Origin: Vescimonas coprocola
GTDB taxonomy: Bacteria > Bacillota > Clostridia > Oscillospirales > Oscillospiraceae
Assembly (NCBI RefSeq): GCF_018408575.1
Contig: NZ_AP023418.1
Location: 1,764,415-1,828,414 of the forward strand
DNA: 64,000 bases
Reading direction: 5' to 3'
Shown here: piece after piece, positions 2,739 through 24,856 of the stretch
Position numbering within the stretch: position 1 is the stretch's first letter
Layout of the letters: every line of letters begins with the position of its first letter
Program-made: the position numbers and the translations under genes
Notes under the pieces: model-generated
What the model was told of the DNA's origin: nothing
Seen by the model: the letters and a program-made list of their open reading frames with translations, nothing else
The model's database searches: none

Positions 2739-3076
2739 GCGCCCGTAGCTCAGCTGGATAGAGTGACAGACTCCGACGTTTCAGGCGTTTCCAGTTGAGA
2801 TATGGCGCAAAGCATTGCCACACCTGCGTTTGCGGGAACGGCAGAGAAAAAATAGTTAGTTGTTGACTACTATTTGACTACTATCGCAGAAACCCACAAC
2901 CAAATATGTGCCCGTAGCTCAGTTGGATAGAGCGTCAGACTCCGACATTTCAGGCATCTCCAGTTGAGATATGGCGCAAAGCCTTGCCGCACCTGCGTTC
3001 GCGGGAACGGCAGAGGAAAAATGCGTGGTCGTTGACTACTATTTGACGACTATCGCAGAAACCCACAACCAAATAT
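2739..3076 (+). repeat. Two 169-bp tandem repeats, each a tRNA-Arg 5' half plus integrase-arm-like sites
   Basis: The unit starts are at 2739, 2908 and 3077 (the intact tRNA), exactly 169 bp apart. Each unit begins with the tRNA-Arg 5' half, through the anticodon loop ACTCCGAC (2739-2777, 2908-2946). It then switches to non-tRNA sequence that is nearly the same in both copies. Near its end each unit carries a doubled TTTGACTACTA-like motif followed by TCGCAG (2863-2889, 3032-3058). The same doubled motif lies about 120 bp before the attR at the other end of the mobile element (24667-24690). The halves cannot fold as tRNAs. The likeliest reading is footprints of successive integrations or deletions at this attB. 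Confidence 0.85.
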
Positions 3077-3153
3077 GCGCCCGTAGCTCAGTTGGATAGA
3101 GTGACAGACTCCGACTCTGTAGGCCGCTGGTTCGAATCCAGTCGGGCGTACCA
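3077..3153 (+). tRNA. tRNA-Arg(CCG)
   Basis: A full 77-nt cloverleaf. The acceptor GCGCCCG pairs with CGGGCGT, and the anticodon stem ACAGA/TCTGT encloses loop CTCCGAC, giving anticodon CCG. A normal TTCGAAT T-loop follows, and CCA is encoded. It is the attachment target of the mobile element: its 3' half is repeated at 24811-24856. Confidence 0.95.
3108..3153 (+). repeat. attL: direct repeat of the tRNA-Arg 3' half
   Basis: The 46 bp run from the anticodon loop to CCA. They match 24811-24856 with a single A/G difference in the anticodon loop (CCGAC here, CCGGC there). This copy completes the functional tRNA. Confidence 0.85.
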
Positions 3154-3189
3154 AATCCCTAAAAGCTGTATAGCTTTTGGGGATTTTTA
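3153..3189 (+). terminator. Terminator after tRNA-Arg
   Basis: An AT-rich hairpin (AAAAGCT/AGCTTTT extended by ATCCC/GGGGAT) ends in TTTTTA directly after the CCA end. Confidence 0.75.
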
Positions 3190-3286
3190 TTAGCAACAGA
3201 TGGAGGCGGTACCTGACTTGCGCGTTTAAGTGATTGAATAGCGGTATTATGCGCTTTGCCTGTTCATCAAGAGAAACGAATAATGG

Positions 3287-3315
3287 TTGCTGATAGATTA
3301 AAATAATGGTATACT
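3287..3315 (+). promoter_or_regulatory. Promoter of the helicase-nuclease/Type III operon
   Basis: TTGCTG (3287-3292), a 17-bp spacer and TATACT (3310-3315) lie about 60 bp before the helicase start. The surrounding bases are markedly AT-rich. Confidence 0.6.
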
Positions 3316-3380
3316 TTAACAATTATGTAGTATAGCTAAGCGCTTACGAATCATTCAATGAAGAATTGTGGTGATCAGCT

Positions 3381-6266
3381 ATGTTTGATTTTGGAAACGC
3401 AAATGACGGGCAGCGAAAAGCAATAGCGGCTGCAGACGGTCCTGTCCTCATAACGGCAGGTCCCGGAACCGGCAAAACATATACGCTCGTGCAGCGTGCA
3501 ATCTACCTCATAGAGGAATGCAATGTAAGGCCGGAGAGCATCTTCATTGCCACATTTACGGAAAAGGCTGCGAAGGAACTGGTAACACGTATTACAAACG
3601 AGCTTGCAAATCGAAACATCACGGCAAACATCAACGAAATGTATATCGGTACGTTCCACTCGCTCTGCCTTCGTATGCTGAAAGAGCATTTGGAATATAC
3701 ACGGCTTCGCCGAAACTACCGCTTGATGGATTCGTTTGACCAGCAGTATATGGTATTTCAGAATATCCATCGTTTCAGAAGTATTCCGGAGATTGAAATC
3801 GTCCTTCCGAACGGTGGCGCATGGAAGCAAGCCGAAACGATCTGTAACTTTGTAAACAACCTTTCCGAAGAATTGGTTTCGCCGGAGGAGCTGATGTCTG
3901 ACCATGACCCATCGATTGCATCACTCGGTCGGATGCTTCAGGAATATCGCACAATTCTTACGGAAGCGAATCTGATGGATTTCTCCTCCATCCAGATAGA
4001 GGCATATCGGCTTCTCTGCGATAACGAGGGCATTCTGAATGAGCTTCGCTCTGCGATCACGCATATCATGGTCGATGAATACCAGGACACGAACTATATT
4101 CAGGAGCAACTCGTGTTTCTCCTCGCCGGGGAAAGAAAGAATATCTGCGTGGTCGGAGACGATGACCAGGGCCTGTACCGTTTCCGCGGTGCAACCATCC
4201 GAAACATCCTGGAATTTCCGCAGAAGTTTGCCAATGGCGAATGCCGTATTATCCCGCTGGTCATCAACTATCGTTCCAACAGCGACATCGTTGATTTTTA
4301 TAACCGATGGATGGATACCACGGATGGTGCAAAGTTCAAGTTTCGCTGGGAAAATTTCAGATATGAAAAACGCATTGAACCTCATGAAAAATCCGCACTT
4401 CACAGCCCTGCGGTCGTGAAATTAGCCGGTGTGAATGACGAGGATGAATGGCATGAGAAGATCCTGCAGTTTATCAACAACCTGAAAACATCCGGCAAGC
4501 TGATGGACTATAATCAGATAGCGTTTCTCTTCAACTCAGTCAAACATCCGAGGGTGACTGCTCTTGCTCGTTTTCTTGAGGAGAACCATATCAATGTTTA
4601 CTCACCGCGTTCGGATATGTTTTTCCAGCGTGACGAAATACGACTGGCGCTCGGCTGCCTTATGCTGATGTTCCCGTTTTATGTGCAGGGGTTGGAAAAC
4701 GGGGAGTATACCTTTTTACAGCCTGAGCACCTGACTTATTATCGGAACTGTATCATGCTGGCGAATGAGTATCTGATGCAGCCGGAGCACACCGACCTGC
4801 TGAAATGGATACGCCGCCGAGGAAAAGACCATGTAAGCCTGACCGACGCAACGGACTACGCCTACTGTGGGCTCATGTATCAGATGTTTGAGTTTCAGCC
4901 TTTTGCCGGTATTCTGGATACAGATATGGATGTCGGCGTTGTCGATATCCGACCAGCTCGAAATCTGGCAAAGCTGACGCAGATCATCGGAAAATTTGAA
5001 TACCTCCACCGGGTGGATGTCTTATCGGCCGACAAGTATCGCGGGAAACGCGGCATTGATGCCAATACGGAACTGCTCTTTAATCTGTATCTCCGCCTGC
5101 TCTATGACGGCGGTATCACGGAGTATGAGGATGATTCCGAGTATGCGCCGAGCGGCTGCGTCTCATTCCTTACGATCCACCAGTCCAAAGGGATGGAGTT
5201 CCCGATTGTTTTTGTGGATTCTCTGACAAATGTGCCGAGAAAAACCACAAACGACCTTATGATGACGATAGAGGATCGCTACTTCAAGCGCCCGGCATTT
5301 GAACCGTATGAGGTCACAAAATTCTTTGATTTCTGGCGTCTGTACTACACGGCTTTCTCCCGTGCGCAGGATCTGTTGATACTGACCTGCAATGAGGACA
5401 AGCGGACACCCAGCGCTTACTTCAAAGAGGTTTATGACGAGCTTCAGTCCGTGGACAGCGAAGCATTTGATATCCGGGAGTTCAACTTCAAGTCCGTGAA
5501 GGCCGTGAACGTCAAGAGCACCTACTCGTTCACATCGCACATCACAGTGTATGAGACCTGCGCCCTGCAGTACAAGTTCTACCGCGAACTGGAGTTCATG
5601 CCCGTCCGTGCCAACGCTATGCTCTTCGGTACGCTTGTCCATGAGACGATAGAGGATGTTCACCGTGCTGCACTCAGGCACGAGGAGCAGACGATCACCG
5701 AGGAAAACGTGAACCGTTGGTTTGCCTCCAACTATGTGTCATTGACGAAAACCGAGCACACCTACCTCGCCGGTCCTCAGCGCGAGGCGGCATTGAAGCA
5801 AGTGCTCCGCTATGTAGAGCGGCAGCACGGCGACTGGTCTGCCATCCAGCAAGCAGAGGTGGATGTTTCTCTGGTGAAGCCGGATTATATCATTGAAGGC
5901 AAGGTCGACCTGATCCGGGGTGAGGGCGACACGGTCGAGATTGTGGATTTCAAAGCCGAACGGAAACCGGATATGGAGAAAATGCGGGATCGGCTTGAGC
6001 GGTACCGTCGGCAGCTTCATATCTATGCCCATCTCGTGGAGGAGCGTACCGGGCGGAAGGTCAGTAAGATGCACCTCTACTATACCGGAGAGGACGGCGG
6101 CGTCCCGACGATCACATATCCGTATACAAAGTCTGCCGTGGAAGGAACGCTGGCGTCATTCGATGATACGGTACATAAGATCATGAAGAAGGATTTCCGG
6201 CACTGTGCCGATGACCCGAAGGTCTGCGCTGGCTGTGACTTCCGTTTCTATTGCAGAAACAAATAA
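3381..6266 (+). CDS. UvrD/PcrA-type helicase fused to a Fe-S PD-(D/E)XK nuclease (961 aa)
   Basis: An SF1A helicase with every core motif: Walker A AGPGTGKT at 26-33, VDEYQDTN near 230, GDDDQGLYRFRGA, NYRSNSDIV, TIHQSKGMEF near 600 and YTAFSRAQD near 655. The last 240 residues form a Cas4/AddB-like nuclease: GTLVHE, EGKVDLI, then EIVDFKAE carrying the catalytic Asp/Lys. Four cysteines are placed to hold a 4Fe-4S cluster, one in YETCALQY near 727 and three in CAGCDFRFYC near 950. It should unwind and cut DNA from an end. It heads an operon with Type III mod and res (next ATG 21 bp on), which points to defence rather than housekeeping repair. It is not GajB, which lacks a nuclease domain. Confidence 0.85.
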   Translation: MFDFGNANDGQRKAIAAADGPVLITAGPGTGKTYTLVQRAIYLIEECNVRPESIFIATFTEKAAKELVTRITNELANRNITANINEMYIGTFHSLCLRMLKEHLEYTRLRRNYRLMDSFDQQYMVFQNIHRFRSIPEIEIVLPNGGAWKQAETICNFVNNLSEELVSPEELMSDHDPSIASLGRMLQEYRTILTEANLMDFSSIQIEAYRLLCDNEGILNELRSAITHIMVDEYQDTNYIQEQLVFLLAGERKNICVVGDDDQGLYRFRGATIRNILEFPQKFANGECRIIPLVINYRSNSDIVDFYNRWMDTTDGAKFKFRWENFRYEKRIEPHEKSALHSPAVVKLAGVNDEDEWHEKILQFINNLKTSGKLMDYNQIAFLFNSVKHPRVTALARFLEENHINVYSPRSDMFFQRDEIRLALGCLMLMFPFYVQGLENGEYTFLQPEHLTYYRNCIMLANEYLMQPEHTDLLKWIRRRGKDHVSLTDATDYAYCGLMYQMFEFQPFAGILDTDMDVGVVDIRPARNLAKLTQIIGKFEYLHRVDVLSADKYRGKRGIDANTELLFNLYLRLLYDGGITEYEDDSEYAPSGCVSFLTIHQSKGMEFPIVFVDSLTNVPRKTTNDLMMTIEDRYFKRPAFEPYEVTKFFDFWRLYYTAFSRAQDLLILTCNEDKRTPSAYFKEVYDELQSVDSEAFDIREFNFKSVKAVNVKSTYSFTSHITVYETCALQYKFYRELEFMPVRANAMLFGTLVHETIEDVHRAALRHEEQTITEENVNRWFASNYVSLTKTEHTYLAGPQREAALKQVLRYVERQHGDWSAIQQAEVDVSLVKPDYIIEGKVDLIRGEGDTVEIVDFKAERKPDMEKMRDRLERYRRQLHIYAHLVEERTGRKVSKMHLYYTGEDGGVPTITYPYTKSAVEGTLASFDDTVHKIMKKDFRHCADDPKVCAGCDFRFYCRNK

Positions 6267-6287
6267 CCGATGGAGGGTTTGATAACA

Positions 6288-8027
6288 ATGGATGAGCAGC
6301 TTACTTTTGAATTTGAACAGAGACCGACGATAAAGGGGTTCCCTGAACTTCGCTGGACGGGCAAGCGCCCCTACCGCTCCACGCAGTATTATCCTGCACA
6401 GCTGCGGGAGTCCTACGGTGAGGAGCAGAACGGCTGGATCAACAAGATTTTCTGGGGAGATAATCTCCAGGTTATGAGCCATCTGCTGAAGGAGTATCGT
6501 GGAAAAATCGACCTCATCTATATTGATCCTCCGTTCGACAGCAAGGCGGATTATAAGCGGAAAATCGAGGTGAAAAATGTTGGTAAAACTACATCTGATA
6601 GCTCCTCGTTTGAAGAAAAGCAGTATGGGGATATATGGACAAATGACGAATATCTCCAGTTTATGTACGAAAGATTTACGATTATGCGCGATTTGCTATC
6701 TGAAACGGGATGCATATATGTTCATTGCGATTGGCACAAGGTTCATCATCTTAGATTAATTATGGATGAAGTATTTGGACAAGATAATTTTCGAAACGAG
6801 ATTATTTGGTGGTACTTGTGGGGAGGTCGTGGAAAGGCCCAATGGAATAGCAAACATGATAACCTTTTATTTTATTCCAAATCGGGAAAATGGACATTCA
6901 ATTATATGGATGTTTTAGATGATCACACTCTAATGACCGAGGGATCAAAGAACAGGCTTAACTATGCCGGTGCTATGGTTACCACTAAAAGTGAGTCATC
7001 AGAAATACCGGAAGATAAAGTACTTCCATCAGATACATGGTATATTGCAACCATCAACGCAATGGCAAAAGAAAAGGCTAATTATCCCACTCAAAAGCCA
7101 GAGAAATTACTTGAGAAGATTATTATGGCATCCTCAAATCCCGGCGACCTTGTTTTTGACTGTTTCATGGGCAGCGGCACAACGCAGGCAGTTGCCATGA
7201 AGCTGGGCAGACGTTTTATCGGCGCAGACATCAACCTCGGTGCAGTCCAGACCACTACTAAACGTCTGCTCTCAGTGGGAAAAGAGCTGGAAGACAACCA
7301 GACCAGCATGGGATCGGCTGCTGACACGAAATACACCGGTTTCGAGGTCTACAACGTCAACAACTACGACTTCTTCCGCAACCCCGTGGAAGCCCGTGAC
7401 CTGCTGATTGCAGCGCTGGAGATCCAGCCGTTCCCGCAGAGCGATGTCTGGGACGGTGAACTTGACGGCAGGATGGTGAAGATCATGCCGGTCAACCGTA
7501 TCGCTACCAAGGCAGACTTGAAGGAACTCCTCGCCAATCTGCCCTACAAGACCTACGAGAAGCGCAAGGAAGAAAATCCGAATCAGCCCGTGGAGCGCAT
7601 CACCATCGTCTGCATGGGACACGAGCCTGACCTGAAGGGGGCAATGGAGCAGGAACTGACCGATTATAAGGTAGACATCCAGATCATGGACATCCTCCGC
7701 GATAAGGCAGACCTTCAGCTGAAGCGCGACTCCGAGGCGGAGATCGTCCGGGAAGGCGGCAAGCTGGTCATCCGTGCGTTCTATCCGATGAACCTGATGC
7801 AGAAGCTCTCCCTCCAGAAAGAGTACGTGGAGGACTGGCGTCAGATGGTCGATTCCGTTATGATCGACTGGAACTACGACGGCGTGGTGATGCAGCCTGC
7901 CGTGACCGATGTCCCCGGCAAGAGTGAACTGGTAAAGGGTATCTACGACATTCCGGAAGGTTCCGGCACCATCAAAGTCAAAATCACCGACCTACTCTCC
8001 GAGTCGCTGGAATTGGAGGTGCGTTAA
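6288..8027 (+). CDS. Type III restriction-modification DNA methyltransferase (Mod)
   Basis: A beta-class amino-methyltransferase: the catalytic motif DPPF (near residue 80) comes before the AdoMet-binding motif FDCFMGSGTT (near 290), with the target-recognition region between them. This is the order of Type III Mod proteins and of N6-adenine/N4-cytosine enzymes. The 579-residue length is normal for Mod. The ATG at 6288 is preferred over one at 6270 because GGAGGG (6272-6277) lies 10 nt before it. The segment at about 6570-7140 is visibly richer in A+T than both flanks and coincides with the recognition domain, which suggests allele exchange. The stop is followed immediately by the res start codon. 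Confidence 0.9.
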   Translation: MDEQLTFEFEQRPTIKGFPELRWTGKRPYRSTQYYPAQLRESYGEEQNGWINKIFWGDNLQVMSHLLKEYRGKIDLIYIDPPFDSKADYKRKIEVKNVGKTTSDSSSFEEKQYGDIWTNDEYLQFMYERFTIMRDLLSETGCIYVHCDWHKVHHLRLIMDEVFGQDNFRNEIIWWYLWGGRGKAQWNSKHDNLLFYSKSGKWTFNYMDVLDDHTLMTEGSKNRLNYAGAMVTTKSESSEIPEDKVLPSDTWYIATINAMAKEKANYPTQKPEKLLEKIIMASSNPGDLVFDCFMGSGTTQAVAMKLGRRFIGADINLGAVQTTTKRLLSVGKELEDNQTSMGSAADTKYTGFEVYNVNNYDFFRNPVEARDLLIAALEIQPFPQSDVWDGELDGRMVKIMPVNRIATKADLKELLANLPYKTYEKRKEENPNQPVERITIVCMGHEPDLKGAMEQELTDYKVDIQIMDILRDKADLQLKRDSEAEIVREGGKLVIRAFYPMNLMQKLSLQKEYVEDWRQMVDSVMIDWNYDGVVMQPAVTDVPGKSELVKGIYDIPEGSGTIKVKITDLLSESLELEVR

Positions 8028-10658
8028 ATGCCCGCAGGATTTGATCCGAATTTTTCCTTCAACGAGCAGCTGTGGTATTACTACTCTACGAACCGAGGAA
8101 AAATTCGCTCCCGTTATAATGACCTCACGAGAAAATTCCTCGCCTACAACGACGGCGAGGAGAATCCCCACGCCTTCCTGCGGAAGCCGCAGTTTGAGGC
8201 GTTGGAGATGTATGTTTTTGTGAAGGAATTCATGAATAACAAGCAGGTCTATGAGATGTTTGACGACTGGCGTCACAGACGGGATCACTTCTCCGATGCG
8301 TCCTATTATTCCATTGGTAAGGGCGGTCAGATTCGACTCTTTGACGCCCCGACTGAAAAGCAGACCGACACGCTCTTCAAGCAGATGAAGAAGTACCGTG
8401 AGAGCTATCCAAACTATATCTACGCACTTACGATGGGACTTGGAAAAACCATCCTCATGGCCACCTGCATCTTCTATGAATTCCTGCTTGCGAAAAAGTA
8501 TCCGAGGGACAAGCGTTTCTGCCACAATGCGCTGGTCTTCGCACCGGATAAGACCGTCCTCCAGTCGCTCCGTGAGATCATGACCTTTGACAAAACGAAG
8601 GTCGTGCCGCCGGAGTATGCCCGTGTGCTCGATTCCAACATCAAATTTCACTTTCTTGACGAGGCCGGAACGATTCTGCACACTATCGACGATTCGGATT
8701 TCAATATTATCATCTCCAATACGCAGAAGATCATCGTGAAGAAAAAGCGCAAGGAATCCACGCCTACGGAGACACTCTTTGCCGGAACCGGATCGCTGCT
8801 TTCTGCCGTATACGGTGCAGACAACGATGATGACGATGCGTGGGATGACACCACGCTGATGGACAACCAGCGTTTCAAGAAGCTCTGCCGCCTGCCGCAG
8901 CTCGGCGTCTATGTCGATGAGGCGCATCACCTTTTCGGTGCAGATTTGGAAAAGCAGATTAGGTCGAGCGGAGCCAATAAGACCAGCCTGCGCGACACCA
9001 TCAATCTGCTTGCGGAAAACACATCTATTGTGGCCTGCTATAACTACACCGGTACACCGTATGTCAAGAACCAGCTTCTACCGGAAGTCGTCTACGCATA
9101 CGGTCTGCGTGAATCTATCTGGAACGGCTTCCTGAAAGACGCTGATCCCATCGGTTTTGAAAATGTCAAGAATGAGGAGTTTCTGACCGCAGTAGTGAGA
9201 ACCTTCTGGGAACGGTATGGCGGAAAGACCTACGAAGGACTGAATCCGAAACTCGCTATCTATGCTTCCGGCGTAGAAGAGGCGGCAACGGAAGTCAAGC
9301 CGGTTCTGGAGAAAATCCTGGCTGACCTCGGCATTCCTGCCTCAAGGATTCTGCTGAATGTCGGCGATGCGAAGTACACGAAAAACGATGACATCAGAGA
9401 TTTCAACAATCTCGATGTTCCCAGCTCGGAAGGAAATGAAAAGCAGTTCATTATTCTTGTTGAAAAAGGCAAGGAAGGTTGGAACTGCCGTTCTCTCTTT
9501 GGCGTGGCTCTTTTCCGTAGTCCAAAGTCGAAAATATTTGTTCTCCAGGCTACGATGCGCTGTCTCCGTGCAATCACAGACGAGCGCTTGACTGCCGCTG
9601 TATTTCTCTCCAAGGAAAACTACGACACTCTGGATGATGAGCTCCACAAGAACTTTAATATGGAGATCAAAGACATCAAGAATCCATCCAAGGATGACCG
9701 ACACAAATACCAGGTACGGGTGCTTCCTCCTCCGAGAACAATCACGCTCAAGCGGGTATGGCACGAGTATACGCTCCACGAAAAGGAATACTCCGAGCCG
9801 GTAGATTTCAAGCTGGCAGATGCGGACTTCTCCAAGTATGCCAGCATCATGTACGAGAGAGACAGCCTCGCCCTTGACACCTCTGTTAAAGAGAAGAATA
9901 TCGACCATTTCAAGGAGAATATGCGTTATAGCGAATTTTCTCTCGCCGGAGAAGTGGCCCGTTATCTTAATATTTCCTGCATCCTCGCCGCCAGAATTCT
10001 TCGAGAATCCGTTGACGGGATCGATACGGTTCTCGAGGCGGTCAACCGCTATAACGCTGTTTTGGATGACTATATTATCCCTGCCGTATTTCATGCGCTG
10101 TTTGATGTCACTTCGGAATTGAAAACTGAGGACAAAGAACTGGTGCTGCTGCACGAGCCGAAGGATGCCGGATACTATGAGTTCTCCGCAAAGGATGACC
10201 TCGTGCTTACAAATCGTTATCCCGGTTTTAAACCTGAAGAAATCGCAAAGAGCTTCCACGCCGACACCTATTGTTTTGACTCAAAGCCGGAGAAGGAATG
10301 CTTCATGCAGTATATTACAAGCGGCAAAGTTGCGGAGGTGTACTTCACAGGTATGTTCACCTCCAATCAGGGCGATCTCTCTGTCCATTACTATGACCCG
10401 GAATCCGGCAGAATCCGCCAGTATTATCCTGACTTCCTTGCGAAGATGACAGACGGCTCCTATCAGCTTATCGAGGTCAAGGGTGACAACAAGATTGATG
10501 ATACTGTGGTTAAGGCAAAGCAGACAGCTGCTGAAGAGATGGCTGTGGCAAGTGGTATAAAGTATCTCATGTATGCTGGAAGTCAAATCATGAGTTCTCA
10601 CATTTTGGACGATTCGGAATCCGTTTATCCCCGTACTATAAGTTGCCAGCAATCATGA
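8028..10658 (+). CDS. Type III restriction Res-like helicase-nuclease
   Basis: An 876-residue SF2 translocase: MGLGKT near residue 134, VDEAHHLF near 297, the SAT-like motif YTGTPY, and QATMRCLRAI (motif VI) near 507. The C-terminus has a PD-(D/E)XK nuclease, YYPDF near 799 and LIEVKG near 815, as in Type III Res subunits. With Mod it should form a complex that translocates on or scans DNA and cuts unmodified sites. The ATG follows the mod stop with no gap, with GGAGGT at 8015-8020, so translation is coupled. The sequence looks diverged from classical EcoP1-type Res. The operon ends within 26 bp of the convergent integrase gene. Confidence 0.88.
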   Translation: MPAGFDPNFSFNEQLWYYYSTNRGKIRSRYNDLTRKFLAYNDGEENPHAFLRKPQFEALEMYVFVKEFMNNKQVYEMFDDWRHRRDHFSDASYYSIGKGGQIRLFDAPTEKQTDTLFKQMKKYRESYPNYIYALTMGLGKTILMATCIFYEFLLAKKYPRDKRFCHNALVFAPDKTVLQSLREIMTFDKTKVVPPEYARVLDSNIKFHFLDEAGTILHTIDDSDFNIIISNTQKIIVKKKRKESTPTETLFAGTGSLLSAVYGADNDDDDAWDDTTLMDNQRFKKLCRLPQLGVYVDEAHHLFGADLEKQIRSSGANKTSLRDTINLLAENTSIVACYNYTGTPYVKNQLLPEVVYAYGLRESIWNGFLKDADPIGFENVKNEEFLTAVVRTFWERYGGKTYEGLNPKLAIYASGVEEAATEVKPVLEKILADLGIPASRILLNVGDAKYTKNDDIRDFNNLDVPSSEGNEKQFIILVEKGKEGWNCRSLFGVALFRSPKSKIFVLQATMRCLRAITDERLTAAVFLSKENYDTLDDELHKNFNMEIKDIKNPSKDDRHKYQVRVLPPPRTITLKRVWHEYTLHEKEYSEPVDFKLADADFSKYASIMYERDSLALDTSVKEKNIDHFKENMRYSEFSLAGEVARYLNISCILAARILRESVDGIDTVLEAVNRYNAVLDDYIIPAVFHALFDVTSELKTEDKELVLLHEPKDAGYYEFSAKDDLVLTNRYPGFKPEEIAKSFHADTYCFDSKPEKECFMQYITSGKVAEVYFTGMFTSNQGDLSVHYYDPESGRIRQYYPDFLAKMTDGSYQLIEVKGDNKIDDTVVKAKQTAAEEMAVASGIKYLMYAGSQIMSSHILDDSESVYPRTISCQQS

Positions 10659-10683: not shown

Positions 10684-11856
10684 TTATATCTCAAGCCCTT
10701 TTTGTAGTTTTGCACTTGCGGTTTGCTTATTCTTGTCGAAAGCGTGGGTATAAATATCCAGCGTGGTGGAGGGCTGGCTGTGGCCGAGGATGCCCGCCAC
10801 CGTGGCCACATCCGTACCGCCCGCGATCATCAGACTGGCGGCGGTGTGCCGGAGAGAATGGACGTTCAGCTCTTGCGGCAGGCCGTTCTTCTTGAGGATC
10901 AGCTTGAAGCGGTAGGTGAAGGTGGTGGGCGTCATGGGGAGCTGCGCTCCTTGACGGCGGAACAGGAAGTCATCAGCGGTCAGCTGCCGCTGGTCATAGG
11001 TCTCGGTGATATACCGGCATTTTTTTTGGTACTCCCGCAGGAGACTTTCCATCTCGGCTGAGAAGTACACATAGCGGTCACCTGCGCGGGTCTTGGGTTC
11101 TTTGACGAAGATCTCCTCGTCCGTCACCTTGACCGCGTTGCGGCAGATGTGGATGGAACGCTGCTCCCAATCAATGTCGCACCACTTCAATCCGCAGCAC
11201 TCGCCCCGCCGCATCCCCGTGGCAATGATGAGCTTGAAGTAGGTTTCGTACTTGATGCTCTCGCCCTCCAGCGCGGCGATGATCTTCTGCGCCGTTTCCT
11301 CGTCCGCGATCTTCTTTTCACACTTTCGACCGGCGTAGCGGTAGGTGCGCCACGCCGGATTATGCGAAAGAAAGCCACCCTCCACGGCATCAGAGAGAAT
11401 GCTGCACAGCGTAGCGTGCACGCCCTCAATGGTGTACTCGGAGAGTGGCTTTTTTGTGTCGGGACGGATGACTTTTCGCAGTTCGGCGTAGAAATTCCGG
11501 AAGTGCTCCGGCCGCAGCTCGGTGAGCTTGTAGTGACCCAGCGCCGGGAGGATACGCTCGATGTCCTGCCGGTCGCGGCGGATGGTGGACTTCGCCAGCT
11601 TGCCGGGCGCGATGTCCGTCAGCCACAGGTCGATGTATTTTGCCAGCGTGAGCTGTTGGACGGGCTGCGGCGTGTGGCGGCATTCCCGTTCAAAGAGGAC
11701 CGCCTGTTCGTTGAGCCACTTTTCCACCTGCCTGGGTGTCAGCTCTGCGGGAGGATGGACGGTTTTCTGCTGCGGTCTGATGCGTTTGCCGTTGTAGTCA
11801 TAGCCCATGGAGACCACGATGAGATAGCTGCTGCCGCGCTTGCGGATGCTTGCCAT
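10684..11856 (-). CDS. Tyrosine recombinase/integrase (first copy, 390 aa)
   Basis: It has an N-terminal arm-binding region, a SAM-like core-binding domain and a complete catalytic domain: Arg in ATGMRRGE (near 217), Lys in EPKTRAGDR, HSLRH (near 331), GHSQPS and the nucleophile Tyr in DIYTHAF (near 369). All active-site residues are present. GAGAGGT lies upstream of the ATG. It lies 128 bp downstream of a second, clearly different integrase in the same orientation. Either could be responsible for the tRNA-Arg insertion; which one acts is not decidable from sequence alone. Confidence 0.93.
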   Translation of the reverse strand: MASIRKRGSSYLIVVSMGYDYNGKRIRPQQKTVHPPAELTPRQVEKWLNEQAVLFERECRHTPQPVQQLTLAKYIDLWLTDIAPGKLAKSTIRRDRQDIERILPALGHYKLTELRPEHFRNFYAELRKVIRPDTKKPLSEYTIEGVHATLCSILSDAVEGGFLSHNPAWRTYRYAGRKCEKKIADEETAQKIIAALEGESIKYETYFKLIIATGMRRGECCGLKWCDIDWEQRSIHICRNAVKVTDEEIFVKEPKTRAGDRYVYFSAEMESLLREYQKKCRYITETYDQRQLTADDFLFRRQGAQLPMTPTTFTYRFKLILKKNGLPQELNVHSLRHTAASLMIAGGTDVATVAGILGHSQPSTTLDIYTHAFDKNKQTASAKLQKGLEI

Positions 11857-11984: not shown

Positions 11985-13193
11985 TCATGCACTGTGCCGT
12001 TTCGGAGAACAGGCGGCGGCGAGATTGAAAATCTGCTCGCCGTCCGGGCGGAGCATGGTGCGCATGGAGTCAGCCGCCTGCTCCTTCTGTGCCTGCTGGG
12101 GGTGGCAGTAGGTGCGCTCTAAGAAGCCGGTGTCAGCGTGCCCCACGAGGTCTGCCACCGTCTGCTTGTCCACGCCGCAGTGCAGCAGCGAGGTCACGAA
12201 GTAGTGCCGCAGGGTGTGAAGGTGGTATTCCCGCGGAAAGCCGATGGCTTCATAGATTTTCCGCAGCCGCTTGGTGAAGGTGTCCGGGTGGATGAGCTGC
12301 CCCTGCTCATCGGTGAAGAGGTAGGGACTGAGCCTGCGGCGCTGCTTGTCCGCCTCCATCTGCTTGCGGCGCTTGTAGGCGAGGAGGATACCCCGCAGGT
12401 CAGAGGAGAGATAGACTTCACGGCTCTTGCCGTTTTTGGTAGAGCCCTCCACGATGCCCTTGCCGGGAACGCTGCTGCGGGAGCGGCTGACGGTGAGCAG
12501 CAGACCGTTTTGCGTGCCGGCGAAGTCCGACCATTGCAGAGCGCACAGCTCGCCCCGGCGGCAACCGGTGTACATGGAGAGCAGATAGAACAGGCGGTAG
12601 TGCCGCGGCTCCTTTGCCAGCGCATCCAGCAGCTTTTCCACCTCGCCTCGCGTGGGAATGCGCTGCACCGTGCGCTGCGGTGTGGGCAGGTCTAACATCC
12701 GCGCGGGATTCTTTTCGATGATCTCATTGCGCTTAGCGTCGCTGAGTACGGCGGAGACCACAGAGAGGTATCGCTGCGCGGTGGATTCGTTGATGTGCTT
12801 TCCGTGGTGCTTGCGCTTGCGCAGCTCGGAGAGCATATTTTCCAGTGCCATCGGTCGGAGCTTATTGAGGCGGATGCCGCCGATCATGGGATACACCACC
12901 TCCAGCATCCGCCGGTATGCAGCGATGGTGCTGGGGGCGTATTTCGTCTGCCGCTTCAGCCAGCGGGAGGCGAATTCCTCAAAGGTCATCTCGCCGTCCT
13001 CGGCGTAGCCGGTCTTGAAGCTGCGCTCCAGTTCTTCGGCGGCGTGGGCGACATACTGCCCAATGCCGCGTTTGGGAACATTGGGCGGGACTTGGATGGT
13101 CTTTGCCTTGCTGATTTTTTTGCCGTTGGGTCGGTAGCCGTTGCTGACGGTGATCTTATATCGCCGCTCGTCCAGTTGCTTGATGCTTGCCAT
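11985..13193 (-). CDS. Tyrosine recombinase/integrase (second copy, 402 aa)
   Basis: A second full-length tyrosine recombinase, with Arg in TGCRRGE (near 213), STKNGKSR supplying the Lys, HTLRHY (near 327), GHADTGFLE and Tyr in ERTYCHP. It shares the MASI start and the fold with the first integrase but differs throughout, so this is not a recent duplication. Its ATG is 2 nt after the relaxase stop and its ribosome binding site GGGAGGG lies inside the relaxase 3' end, so it is translated as the last gene of the mob operon. That coupling ties excision/integration to mobilization functions. Confidence 0.93.
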   Translation of the reverse strand: MASIKQLDERRYKITVSNGYRPNGKKISKAKTIQVPPNVPKRGIGQYVAHAAEELERSFKTGYAEDGEMTFEEFASRWLKRQTKYAPSTIAAYRRMLEVVYPMIGGIRLNKLRPMALENMLSELRKRKHHGKHINESTAQRYLSVVSAVLSDAKRNEIIEKNPARMLDLPTPQRTVQRIPTRGEVEKLLDALAKEPRHYRLFYLLSMYTGCRRGELCALQWSDFAGTQNGLLLTVSRSRSSVPGKGIVEGSTKNGKSREVYLSSDLRGILLAYKRRKQMEADKQRRRLSPYLFTDEQGQLIHPDTFTKRLRKIYEAIGFPREYHLHTLRHYFVTSLLHCGVDKQTVADLVGHADTGFLERTYCHPQQAQKEQAADSMRTMLRPDGEQIFNLAAACSPKRHSA

Positions 13194-13195
13194 TT

Positions 13196-14608
13196 TTAGA
13201 ACCCTCCCATGGTTTGCTGCTGTTTTTCTTGCACAGCCTGCTCATCCAATTTTTCTTTCACCGCCAGAGCTGCGCCTGCGGCGAAGCCGATCACCGCACC
13301 GAAGTTCTCAGCGGCGATCTTCGCCTCCATGCGCCGCCGCTTTTCCTCGGCGTCCTCATCCTCGTCCAATAGCGCTCCCGCGGCAGCCAGTCCGGCCACA
13401 GCGGGCTTTAGAGGAACAGGCCGCGGATCGCCGCTGCGCCGATCACCAAAAGCAGTGCGATCCACTTGAGGGCCACCAGCAGGCTGAAGTCCGGCAGCCA
13501 GTCGATCCACTTGGAGGAATATTTCTCGCTCAGGTTCCCAACCCGTTCCAGCAGTTTGTTCATCTCCGTCAGTGATTTCTGGATATCTGTCAGAGACTGC
13601 TGCACCGGCGTCAGGTCGATGCGTGTTTTCAGCTCCGGCAGGGCCTTCCGAATTTCCTCCAGCTCCCAGTTTATTCCGTCTGCCTGCTCCGTCAGCTTGT
13701 TCATCGCCTGCGGCAGATCGCACCGGATCACGATGGGCTGGATCGGCTGTGCCGGTGTACTCGGCGGTGCGCTGTTCGACTGGTTCAACCGTTTCAATTC
13801 CTCCATCGGTTTCCTCTGTTCGCAATTTCCTCTTGATGAGTTCCGCCCGTATTCTGAATTCATGCTCCATGGCCTCCTTGCAATACTTTTCCTCGTGTAA
13901 TTTGTTGTCGCGGCACTTTAGTCCGTCCGGCGTGGCGTAGGTGATGTACTTGCGGGTGCTCTCCCACCTCACCTGATAGCCCTCGGACGCCATCAGGGAA
14001 ACGAAAGCGTCCTTGTCGGCGGCGTATTTCATGCACTCGTCGATGGTGTTCATGAGCCGCAGCTTCCAGCTTTGGCCCTTCAGAGCCGTGTGGTACTCCG
14101 CGCCGCCCATGCCGCGGGCCTGCTGCGTTGGCACGTCAAAGACCGGCAGGCCCATCTCCTGACAGATCATGTCATTGCGCCGCATCAGCTCCTGGATCTG
14201 CTCCTTCGCCATGTGCAGCTTTTTGCCGGTCTCGAAGTTGAGGGAGTTGATGACGCAGTGGGAGTGGATGTGCCCGCGGTCGACATGGGTGCAGACAAGC
14301 ACCTCACAGCCGTCGAAGTATTCCGCCAGCCGCCGCGCGGCTTCGTGGGCCTGTCGGGGATCGACTGCCGCGCCCTTCGGAAAGCTCTGCACCATGTGGT
14401 AGAACATCACGCCGCCGTCCTTGTGGTAGAGGAGTTTCGTGTTCAGGAAATCGTCGTAGACGCTCTGCGGCTGGCAGTTGATGCCGCTGACGAGCGGCCC
14501 GCCCTCCCATGCGGTTTTCTTTTCCTGCATGACGTAGAGCATCACGCCGCGCATGGCGGCGCGGGACTGTGTGCCCCGCTTGTAGTTCACGAAATGTACG
14601 ATGGCCAT
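13196..14608 (-). CDS. Relaxase / mobilization nuclease (MobA-like)
   Basis: The N-terminal ~230 residues form a relaxase domain. HVDRGHIHSHCVINS is the metal-binding three-histidine motif, and a Tyr near residue 25 (VMLYVMQ) is a candidate nucleophile. It should nick one strand at oriT and pilot it during conjugation. The middle (about residues 270-400) is Gly/Ala/Asp-rich low complexity. There a second open frame codes for a separate protein (13408-13806). The last 70 residues look protein-like again (LLDEDEDAEEKRRRMEAKI). Start: ATG 14608 gives MAIVHFVNY; a GTG at 14617 is an alternative. It overlaps or abuts mobC upstream and the integrase downstream. Confidence 0.88.
   Translation of the reverse strand: MAIVHFVNYKRGTQSRAAMRGVMLYVMQEKKTAWEGGPLVSGINCQPQSVYDDFLNTKLLYHKDGGVMFYHMVQSFPKGAAVDPRQAHEAARRLAEYFDGCEVLVCTHVDRGHIHSHCVINSLNFETGKKLHMAKEQIQELMRRNDMICQEMGLPVFDVPTQQARGMGGAEYHTALKGQSWKLRLMNTIDECMKYAADKDAFVSLMASEGYQVRWESTRKYITYATPDGLKCRDNKLHEEKYCKEAMEHEFRIRAELIKRKLRTEETDGGIETVEPVEQRTAEYTGTADPAHRDPVRSAAGDEQADGAGRRNKLGAGGNSEGPAGAENTHRPDAGAAVSDRYPEITDGDEQTAGTGWEPEREIFLQVDRLAAGLQPAGGPQVDRTAFGDRRSGDPRPVPLKPAVAGLAAAGALLDEDEDAEEKRRRMEAKIAAENFGAVIGFAAGAALAVKEKLDEQAVQEKQQQTMGGF
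13408..13806 (-). CDS. Nested out-of-frame gene in relaxase: coiled-coil, membrane-anchored MobB-like protein (132 aa)
   Basis: This frame lies wholly inside the relaxase gene. Its ATG at 13806 follows AGAGGAA with 6-nt spacing. The product is well formed: a short Pro/Gln-rich N-terminus, a heptad-like region (LTEQADGINWELEEIRKA ... IQKSLTEMNKLLERVG) and one C-terminal transmembrane helix (WIALLLVIGAAAI). The relaxase frame in the same stretch is low-complexity, as expected when a second frame constrains the DNA. In RSF1010, mobB is likewise encoded out of frame inside mobA and anchors the relaxase to the membrane. The similarity here is of architecture, not of sequence. Confidence 0.65.
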   Translation of the reverse strand: MEELKRLNQSNSAPPSTPAQPIQPIVIRCDLPQAMNKLTEQADGINWELEEIRKALPELKTRIDLTPVQQSLTDIQKSLTEMNKLLERVGNLSEKYSSKWIDWLPDFSLLVALKWIALLLVIGAAAIRGLFL

Positions 14609-14613
14609 ACGGC

Positions 14614-14919
14614 TCACCGACCTTCCATGACTGCCCGCAGCGCGGCGCTGACTTCGGACAGCTCACCGGCAGCTTTTTCCAGACCGATGACCTGCACCTT
14701 GCCTATGTTGGCGAGGACGGTGAGCCGGTTGATGTTGCTGCCGATGCCCTTGAGCTGGCGGAGCAGATCCTTCTGCTCGCCGATGACCACGATTCGCTTG
14801 CCGAGACAGCAGGCGGTGACGTAGTCGCTCATGGACATGTGGGCCTTCGCCGCCAGCGCCCTGATCTTCTCGCGGTCAGCGGACGCCATGCGCGTGCTGA
14901 ATTTGATATCTTTTTTCAT
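14614..14919 (-). CDS. MobC-like relaxosome accessory protein
   Basis: A 101-residue protein with the build of MobC/ribbon-helix-helix accessory factors: a basic N-terminus (MKKDIKFSTRMASADREKIR), MSMSDYV, then a helical region containing LLRQLKGIGSNINRL, the characteristic bacterial mobilization motif. It should bind oriT and help the relaxase open DNA. The start at 14919 has TTGGAGAA about 6 nt upstream. It comes first in the mobC-mobA-(nested gene)-int operon, and its stop overlaps the possible GTG start of mobA. Confidence 0.85.
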   Translation of the reverse strand: MKKDIKFSTRMASADREKIRALAAKAHMSMSDYVTACCLGKRIVVIGEQKDLLRQLKGIGSNINRLTVLANIGKVQVIGLEKAAGELSEVSAALRAVMEGR

Positions 14920-14939
14920 GTTTTTCTCCAATCGTAGCT

Positions 14940-24810: not shown

Positions 24811-24856
24811 ACTCCGGCTCTGTAGGCCGCTGGTTCGAATCCAGTCGGGCGTACCA
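24811..24856 (+). repeat. attR: second copy of the tRNA-Arg 3' half
   Basis: 46 bp identical to 3108-3153 except one base in the anticodon loop. It is not preceded by a tRNA 5' half, so it is the original 3' end displaced by integration. Downstream is a GC-rich terminator that probably belonged to the uninterrupted tRNA gene. Confidence 0.85.

Follow-up and report, generated by a model that had tools for sequence, protein, structure and literature searches.

A predicted mobile type III-like restriction operon with its own helicase-nuclease gene in Vescimonas coprocola

We analysed a 64,000-nucleotide (nt) stretch of the Vescimonas coprocola genome (assembly GCF_018408575.1, contig NZ_AP023418.1, positions 1,764,415 to 1,828,414), referred to here as the window, in which three open reading frames (ORFs) on the plus strand occupy positions 3381-10658. 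They are predicted to encode a helicase-nuclease (H), a DNA methyltransferase (M), and a motor protein with a nuclease end (R), and they appear to form a restriction unit carried by a mobile element. An earlier description made from the DNA letters alone, here called the original prediction, had reported three tightly spaced genes with intact motifs. The gene calls reproduced its coordinates on a single strand, with intergenic gaps of 3 nt (H/M) and 0 nt (M/R), and the catalytic residues that we checked were all present in the window genes. The genes and their key domains are listed below, with protein lengths in amino acids (aa).

3381..6266, plus strand: H, UvrD-type superfamily 1 (SF1) helicase with a Cas4/AddB-like Fe-S PD-(D/E)XK nuclease, 961 aa
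5535..6257, plus strand: nuclease domain of H (PDDEXK_1), residues 719-959, with H754, D843, D856-K858, and Cys 727/949/952/958
6288..8027, plus strand: M, beta-class DNA methyltransferase, type III Mod-like; ORF listed from 6270, 585 aa as listed
6780..7073, plus strand: variable target-recognition region of M, residues 171-268 counted from 6270, apparently exchanged between relatives
8028..10658, plus strand: R, Res-like superfamily 2 (SF2) motor with a C-terminal TnsA-like PD-(D/E)XK nuclease, 876 aa
10245..10577, plus strand: nuclease domain of R, about residues 740-850, with E755, D802, E816, and K818

M probably starts at 6288 rather than 6270, because GGAGGG stands upstream of 6288 and homologues align from there. 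The single promoter first proposed for the operon was not established. A scan of positions 3100-3420 returned two weak sigma-70-like matches (9/12), one per strand, with the plus-strand match at 3256-3284, and shuffles gave 0.6 +/- 0.9 matches. Pfam searches assigned H to UvrD-helicase (253.5 bits), UvrD_C (66.7), and PDDEXK_1 (79.7, cut-off 22), M to N6_N4_Mtase (171.7 bits), and R to Tn7_TnsA-like_N (29.9 bits, cut-off 26.5), with a ResIII match of 21.6 bits slightly below its cut-off of 22.5.

We assembled 28 triplets from plasmid, phage-collection, genome or metagenome-assembled genome, and viral loci, chosen for holding all three genes and not for their order. Left out were the window itself (L001), L129 (same sequence as L128), L204-L216 and L218 (R-anchored loci from contigs already represented), L002 and L039 (deletion remnants of M and R), L139 (distant M and R with other genes between), L203 (contig starts in M), and L233 (split H, distant M). 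The triplets span at least four phyla, with records from Pseudomonadota, Bacillota, Bacteroidota, and Poribacteria, and all 28 have the order H-M-R on one strand. Pairwise distances across them were correlated at 0.98 for H and R, 0.96 for H and the M C-terminus, 0.95 for R and the M C-terminus, and 0.73 for H and the M N-terminus, and none of 1000 permutations reached any of these values. Since H tracks R and the M C-terminus and the order is always kept, H belongs to the unit; that the three genes form a single predicted unit, as originally claimed, is well supported.

The predicted active sites were equally constant. In H, the DEYQD motif, H754, D843, D856, K858, and the four cysteines (727/949/952/958) were kept in 28/28 triplets, and Walker A residues G29/K32/T33 in 27/28, the remaining row being a truncated contig. 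The nuclease and cysteine residues were likewise kept in all 45 H examined (the 28 triplets and 17 other H). M retained DPP and F299/G301/G303 throughout, with one DPPY instead of DPPF, and every R had GxGKT, DEAH, E755, D802, E816, and K818. Extra gene(s) stand between H and M in L036 (11889-12629), L044 (12889-13656), L130 (12898-13761), and L231 (11915-13496), and L132 has a long H-M gap. The intervening genes of L036, L044, and L130 had no Pfam match, and one of the two in L231 matched DUF6615 below the cut-off. By eye, those of L044 and L130 contain hydrophobic stretches resembling membrane segments. At the Synergistaceae locus L043 (8639-12877), H lies in a 1413-aa stop-to-stop open frame that extends it at the N-terminus by a few hundred residues.

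The recognition region of M behaved differently from its C-terminus. Across the same 28 triplets, H distances correlated with those of the recognition region at r = 0.14 (reached by 42/1000 permutations) and with those of the S-adenosylmethionine (SAM) part at r = 0.04 (363/1000). We then compared 30 M proteins (the 28 triplets plus L217 and L219; 435 pairs). The C-termini were at least 80% identical in 34 pairs, which stem from few lineages and are not independent, and in 31 of these the recognition regions were at most 45% identical. The exceptions were L123/L124 and L032/L227, with 97% recognition-region identity each, and L031/L126 with 53%. An Enterococcus plasmid (L034) and a gut phage contig (L219) form the only pair of the 435 in which the recognition/SAM part (76%) exceeds the C-terminus (64%) by more than 10 points. 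For the window and L036, recognition-region identity was 40% or 36%, depending on the alignment. Close C-termini with different recognition regions, in a set where H, R, and the C-terminus are coupled, point to a swappable M cassette: judging from these alignments, the recognition cassette is exchanged on its own, and H, R, and the M scaffold remain associated. A little-changed R occurs with many different cassettes, so M is the most likely seat of specificity, as in type III systems, where Mod supplies it. The cassettes thus provide matched sets of systems differing mostly in specificity, which would be useful for testing which part recognises DNA.

M has the arrangement of a type III Mod, with DPPF before FxGxG and the recognition region between them, and it is homologous to known type III Mods by profile search. 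A profile of 15 M matched MboIIA (1.8e-29), 6k0w_B (named Mod, 5e-29), the EcoP15I Mod 4zcf_A (6e-28), and Mbo45V 7dsu_A (7e-20). The top Foldseek rows for the M model were 6k0w and 4zcf, at a middling predicted local distance difference test score (pLDDT) of 66.9 and a template-modelling score of 0.32-0.35 by query. An alignment of the R motor with a canonical Res profile had a probability of 99.3, and the first Foldseek match of the R model, also of middling quality (pLDDT 75.1), was EcoP15I Res (E 2.1e-8). VIA-align placed RadD (15.9) above EcoP15I Res (14.1), in a list dominated by general SF2 helicases and uninformative on the nuclease domain. Searching PDB sequences with a single R gave no match, and the R profile gave one weak, unrelated kinase match (E 0.55). 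When 15 R proteins were compared with PADLOC, 12 matched the REase_III family (best E 8.4e-8), and none matched another family at 1e-3. RE_endonuc, the canonical Res nuclease domain, was absent from R in Pfam at E up to 0.1; ResIII and RE_endonuc were both found in the distant H sub-type L051. Since the R nuclease is TnsA-like and not RE_endonuc, the classical type III assignment was rejected and the system is called type III-like. The Mod-Res label of the original prediction holds for a Mod-like M and an SF2 motor with a PD-(D/E)XK end, and fails where it would make R a textbook Res.

To describe how regularly H travels with M and R, we counted from both sides. In all 14 plasmid records with at least 80% of R covered, H coverage also reached at least 80% (H is split in two in one record); ten of the 14 were inspected as loci. 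R-anchored viral contigs carried H in 14/18 cases (L210 and L211 are the same in sequence). The four without a full H were L203, which starts inside M, L217, L219, and L220. No H was found in 7.9 kb upstream at L217, where R is divergent, nor at L219, where M is intact and R truncated. Among 22 plasmid records with at least 80% of H, 14 had close M-R, and six of the other eight were inspected. At L035 and L233 (split H), the same order is kept by a methyltransferase and a DEAD/DEAH protein that are distant or identified from annotation alone. The distant H of L237 (22.5% identity) has Dcm, Vsr, and MspI-type genes as its neighbours. Neither M nor R was seen at L037, L038, and L236. The viral scan for full-length H above 1100 bits found M-R in 14/15 (13/14 without the duplicate), a count that leaves out low scorers and the distant H of L133 and L139, whose M is also distant. 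Among the matches listed, the genome-contig scan yielded 11 full-length H, with close M-R in three, a distant M in three, and neither in five. This is a weak census, as its search patterns covered general helicase motifs and it retained 80 relatives out of 582. Its tally starts from 13 long matches, minus the low scorers L059 and L120, with L046 and L053 as partial matches, and excludes L050 (Nitrosomonas; joined tblastn match to H 5-961).

On a tree of 45 H rows, the close M-R label required 5 changes, compared to 13.3 when shuffled, and 0/500 shuffles were as low. The label includes L039, which has M/R remnants, and the shuffle tests for clustering of the label and nothing more. H without M-R are nested inside this tree (L037, L043, and the clade L040/L045/L047/L135). 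In an order-level sample of 295 genomes, full-length H occurred in three among the matches listed: the genome itself, G214, and G007. A phylum-level sample of 398 genomes gave three R matches: the same genome; G345, with a divergent R and no H within 18 kb; and G452, where two contig ends leave the absence of H not judgeable. No DNA match spanning the operon was found in 24 other genomes of the genus, many of them incomplete drafts; the best match was 1.26 kb of H at 68% in G694.

Several loci were observed in altered or unusual contexts. In L039 (4816-5592, genome G214), M and R were joined by an in-frame deletion that left ~54 codons from the start of M and ~180 from the end of R, with H intact. 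The M and R matches overlap by only 2 nt at the junction, so there is no long repeat there. In L138/L220 (the same viral contig), the N-terminal part of H is closely followed by the C-terminal part of R, and the middle of the operon is missing. Only shortened R pieces (9-71% of the query) were present in 11/15 Enterococcus plasmid records, and the operon seems to be decaying in these plasmids. The Fusobacterium H copy (L038) adjoins genes resembling sbcCD by eye. L040, L045, L047, and L135 (Bacillota and one viral contig) have a DUF1351-type gene before H and a TPR/RNase_T exonuclease after it, with no M/R seen; Pfam was run on L045 (DUF1351) and L040 (RNase_T), and L047 and L135 look alike. 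In L225, the divergent M and R are separated by a gene (6321-7529) that matches EVE weakly (21.9 bits, cut-off 23), and no H was found in 18 kb. L048, of the same distant sub-type as L051, has RadC upstream of its H (Pfam) and a DUF4062/HATPase_c_4 protein before type III-like mod and res, which recalls a Schlafen-like context told in a 2017 paper (PMC5704561). L139, also with a distant H, has a RadC gene upstream by eye.

The operon lies within an element of 21.7 kb, from about 3115 to 24856, whose ends are set by 39-bp repeats. The features of the element and its integration site are as follows.

3077..3153, plus strand: tRNA-Arg (CCG), integration site
3115..3153, plus strand: attL, 39-bp exact repeat, the tRNA-Arg 3' end
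10684..11856, minus strand: tyrosine integrase of the element
11985..13193, minus strand: second tyrosine integrase
13196..14617, minus strand: MobA/VirD2-type relaxase
14614..14931, minus strand: NikA/MobC-like mobilization protein
24818..24856, plus strand: attR, 39-bp exact repeat, a copy of the tRNA-Arg 3' end

Ten proteins in or just beyond the element were scanned, and they included the two tyrosine integrases, the MobA relaxase, NikA/MobC, an AAA ATPase, and two MATE transporters. With these contents, the element is predicted to be mobilizable, with H-M-R as cargo. The three genes had been placed at the edge of a mobile element; the element is present, and the genes sit inside it, immediately downstream of tRNA-Arg and between attL and the integrase. 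Two fecal contigs of a phage collection, MT836674 (L240) and MT837126 (L241), carry the right end of the element with its att site, then other genes, then the integrase region. The other genes cover 6.5 kb in L240 (173-6694) and 6.4 kb in L241 (4760-11138), and the integrase region matches over 2.5 kb at 93% in L240 and only 224 bp at 96%, at the region start, in L241. By Pfam, the L240 cargo includes AbiEii, DUF6414, and type I-like M and S genes (N6_Mtase and a type I specificity subunit). Two cargo genes of L241 were scanned, giving a TetR-like match slightly below the cut-off and a CAAX protease. As both relatives carry other genes there, the interval between att and integrase is a cargo slot, which holds other defence-type genes in one of the two. 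Upstream of the element are two 169-bp tandem units (2735-2903 and 2904-3072), each starting with the 5' half of the tRNA-Arg gene and carrying an arm-type repeat also found near the right end of the element (24667). They are probable scars of earlier integrations at tRNA-Arg.

Our preferred interpretation, to which we give an even chance, is a mobile restriction system, type III-like, whose dedicated helicase-nuclease digests DNA starting at the ends made by R. Through its exchangeable recognition region, M would recognise a short DNA sequence and methylate the host copies. R would be powered by its SF2 motor and directed by M in a putative M-R complex, and would cut DNA lacking the M mark. 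H would then enter at the R-made ends, unwind 3'-5', and degrade the DNA with its Fe-S nuclease, making restriction independent of the host AddAB/RecBCD and presumably serving phage defence. UvrD/AddB-type proteins are known to unwind and degrade DNA ends, and this activity, the restriction partners, and a mobile life that would meet hosts with varied AddAB/RecBCD speak for such a role. Breaks made by restriction are commonly taken to be processed further by host RecBCD/AddAB; a restriction system carrying its own end-processing enzyme across phyla would imply that selection has made this later step a part of immunity. A stronger and more tentative version, which we rate as less likely than not, is a self-contained "cut and shred" system, where M-R breaks the DNA, a co-evolved private RecBCD-like enzyme destroys the product, and only the M cassette is swapped. 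In that case, a phage could not save itself by inhibiting host RecBCD/AddAB, and the element would work in any host.

Several observations weigh against a dedicated role for H at R-made ends. The host genome has its own AddA (the search covered AddA and not AddB), which probably makes H dispensable for end degradation in this host. Simple operon linkage would also yield co-inheritance, and L039 retains H despite its fused M/R remnants. H is not exclusive to restriction, and 8/11 H counted in the genome-contig scan were without close M-R. H homologues mostly occurring without mod/res had been named as grounds against one system; this pattern appeared in that scan and not in the close family. 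The triplet that was proposed as worth seeking in other genomes was indeed recovered there, and so was H without M/R: in 5/11 of the genome-scan H, in Annamia (L037), in the DUF1351/RNase_T operons, and in Fusobacterium (L038). These H keep the nuclease, so H can act outside restriction. Conversely, M-R relatives without H are L202, L217, and L225, though their R is divergent; L226 is a contig end.

These points bear on three other explanations. H could be part of the cutting machine, in an M-R-H complex that its motor remodels or loads and in which both nucleases are needed. The coupling of H with R (0.98) and with the M C-terminus (0.96), where contacts are possible, and hardly with the recognition region, would suit such a complex, as would the strict operon order and the conserved extra ATPase 5' of mod in another type III family (Murray et al. 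2021, PMC8259958). We consider it unlikely, though worth serious attention: H has the complete RecB/AddB-type end-processing architecture and exists without M/R in several lineages, and peptides of the extra, different ATPase of Eco86II were not detected in its active preparation (PMC8259958). The tight H-R co-inheritance itself fits H in a complex and H in downstream degradation equally well. Improbable too, in our estimate, is that H is an accessory repair or recombination helicase-nuclease kept beside nucleases, for example to mend self-inflicted breaks, and not a component of the attack. Family members do occur beside sbcCD-like genes (by eye), a DUF1351 protein, an RNase_T exonuclease, or alone, and partial redundancy with RecB was considered by Hudaiberdiev et al. 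in 2017 (PMC5704561). Close-family H is nevertheless with M-R in most lineages, as in the viral scan (14/15, or 13/14 without the duplicate), and the distant H at 22.5% identity again has restriction partners in its Dcm, Vsr, and MspI-type neighbours. That the three genes are adjacent by accident is scarcely credible and was rejected. Nothing was found for it, although sister H without M/R show that linkage is not absolute, and it conflicts with the same order and strand in 28/28 triplets across phyla, the distance correlations, and the clustering of the label on the H tree (5 changes vs 13.3). A self-provided helicase-nuclease acting after R remains our preferred interpretation of the operon.

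The operon was finally compared with known systems. Gabija pairs GajA, an OLD-type TOPRIM nuclease, with the nuclease-less GajB. H resembles GajB as a UvrD-type helicase and differs in having a nuclease domain, and its partners are a methyltransferase and an SF2 protein, not GajA, so Gabija was rejected. AddAB/RecBCD combine an SF1 helicase and an Fe-S RecB-family nuclease for DNA ends, whereas H is one polypeptide in an operon with a restriction pair, with no AddA/AddB partner in the operon. The GajB model of PADLOC matched H at E 8.5e-57, with its best stretch at residues 7-309, and the top match was the DRT helicase RTasHel (1.8e-57). No model dedicated to H-M-R was present among the best 25 of 65 PADLOC 2023 matches for H and the best 25 of 73 for M. 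ARMADA/DISARM comprise a YprA-like helicase, a BrxHII-like helicase, and a PglX-like methyltransferase (PMC12458937); these components are absent among the Pfam matches of H, M, and R, and this candidate was rejected as well. The statement in the original prediction that the locus is neither Gabija nor DISARM agrees with this Pfam content.

The closest relatives are restriction systems. EcoP15I and EcoPI (type III restriction-modification) share a Mod-like M with the recognition region between motifs IV and I, an SF2 R with a C-terminal PD-(D/E)XK, and the M-R order. They differ in that a TnsA-like nuclease here replaces RE_endonuc and H is extra. In the N4-methylcytosine (m4C) type III systems Eco86II and BspHIV, a conserved, nuclease-less SF2 ATPase is encoded 5' of mod (Murray et al. 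2021, PMC8259958). Our operon shares an extra ATPase gene directly upstream of mod and res; H is an SF1 protein with PDDEXK_1, and membership of the m4C group was rejected on this difference. The nearest match is the UvrD-Cas4 association of Hudaiberdiev et al. (2017, PMC5704561), a UvrD helicase fused to a Cas4-like pfam12705 nuclease, which is the architecture of H beside Mod- and Res-like genes. Type III Mod and Res are named there as the commonest neighbourhood of these fusions and Dcm/Vsr as the second, matched here by L237, and an ancillary DNA-processing role is proposed. The helicase-nuclease in front of mod-res had been taken as a new combination, a claim that this paper overturns. 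The name "UvrD-Cas4" was found only in PMC5704561 among the open-licence PubMed Central (PMC) papers searched, and no paper testing the H-M-R unit was found in that literature. Unlike the present analysis, section 8 of PMC5704561 reports no measured co-inheritance of H with Mod/Res, cassette exchange, or experiment. The gene set has thus been in print since 2017. New here, as judged from the open-licence PMC papers searched, are three findings: co-inheritance as measured by distances, exchange of the M cassette, and the cargo slot.

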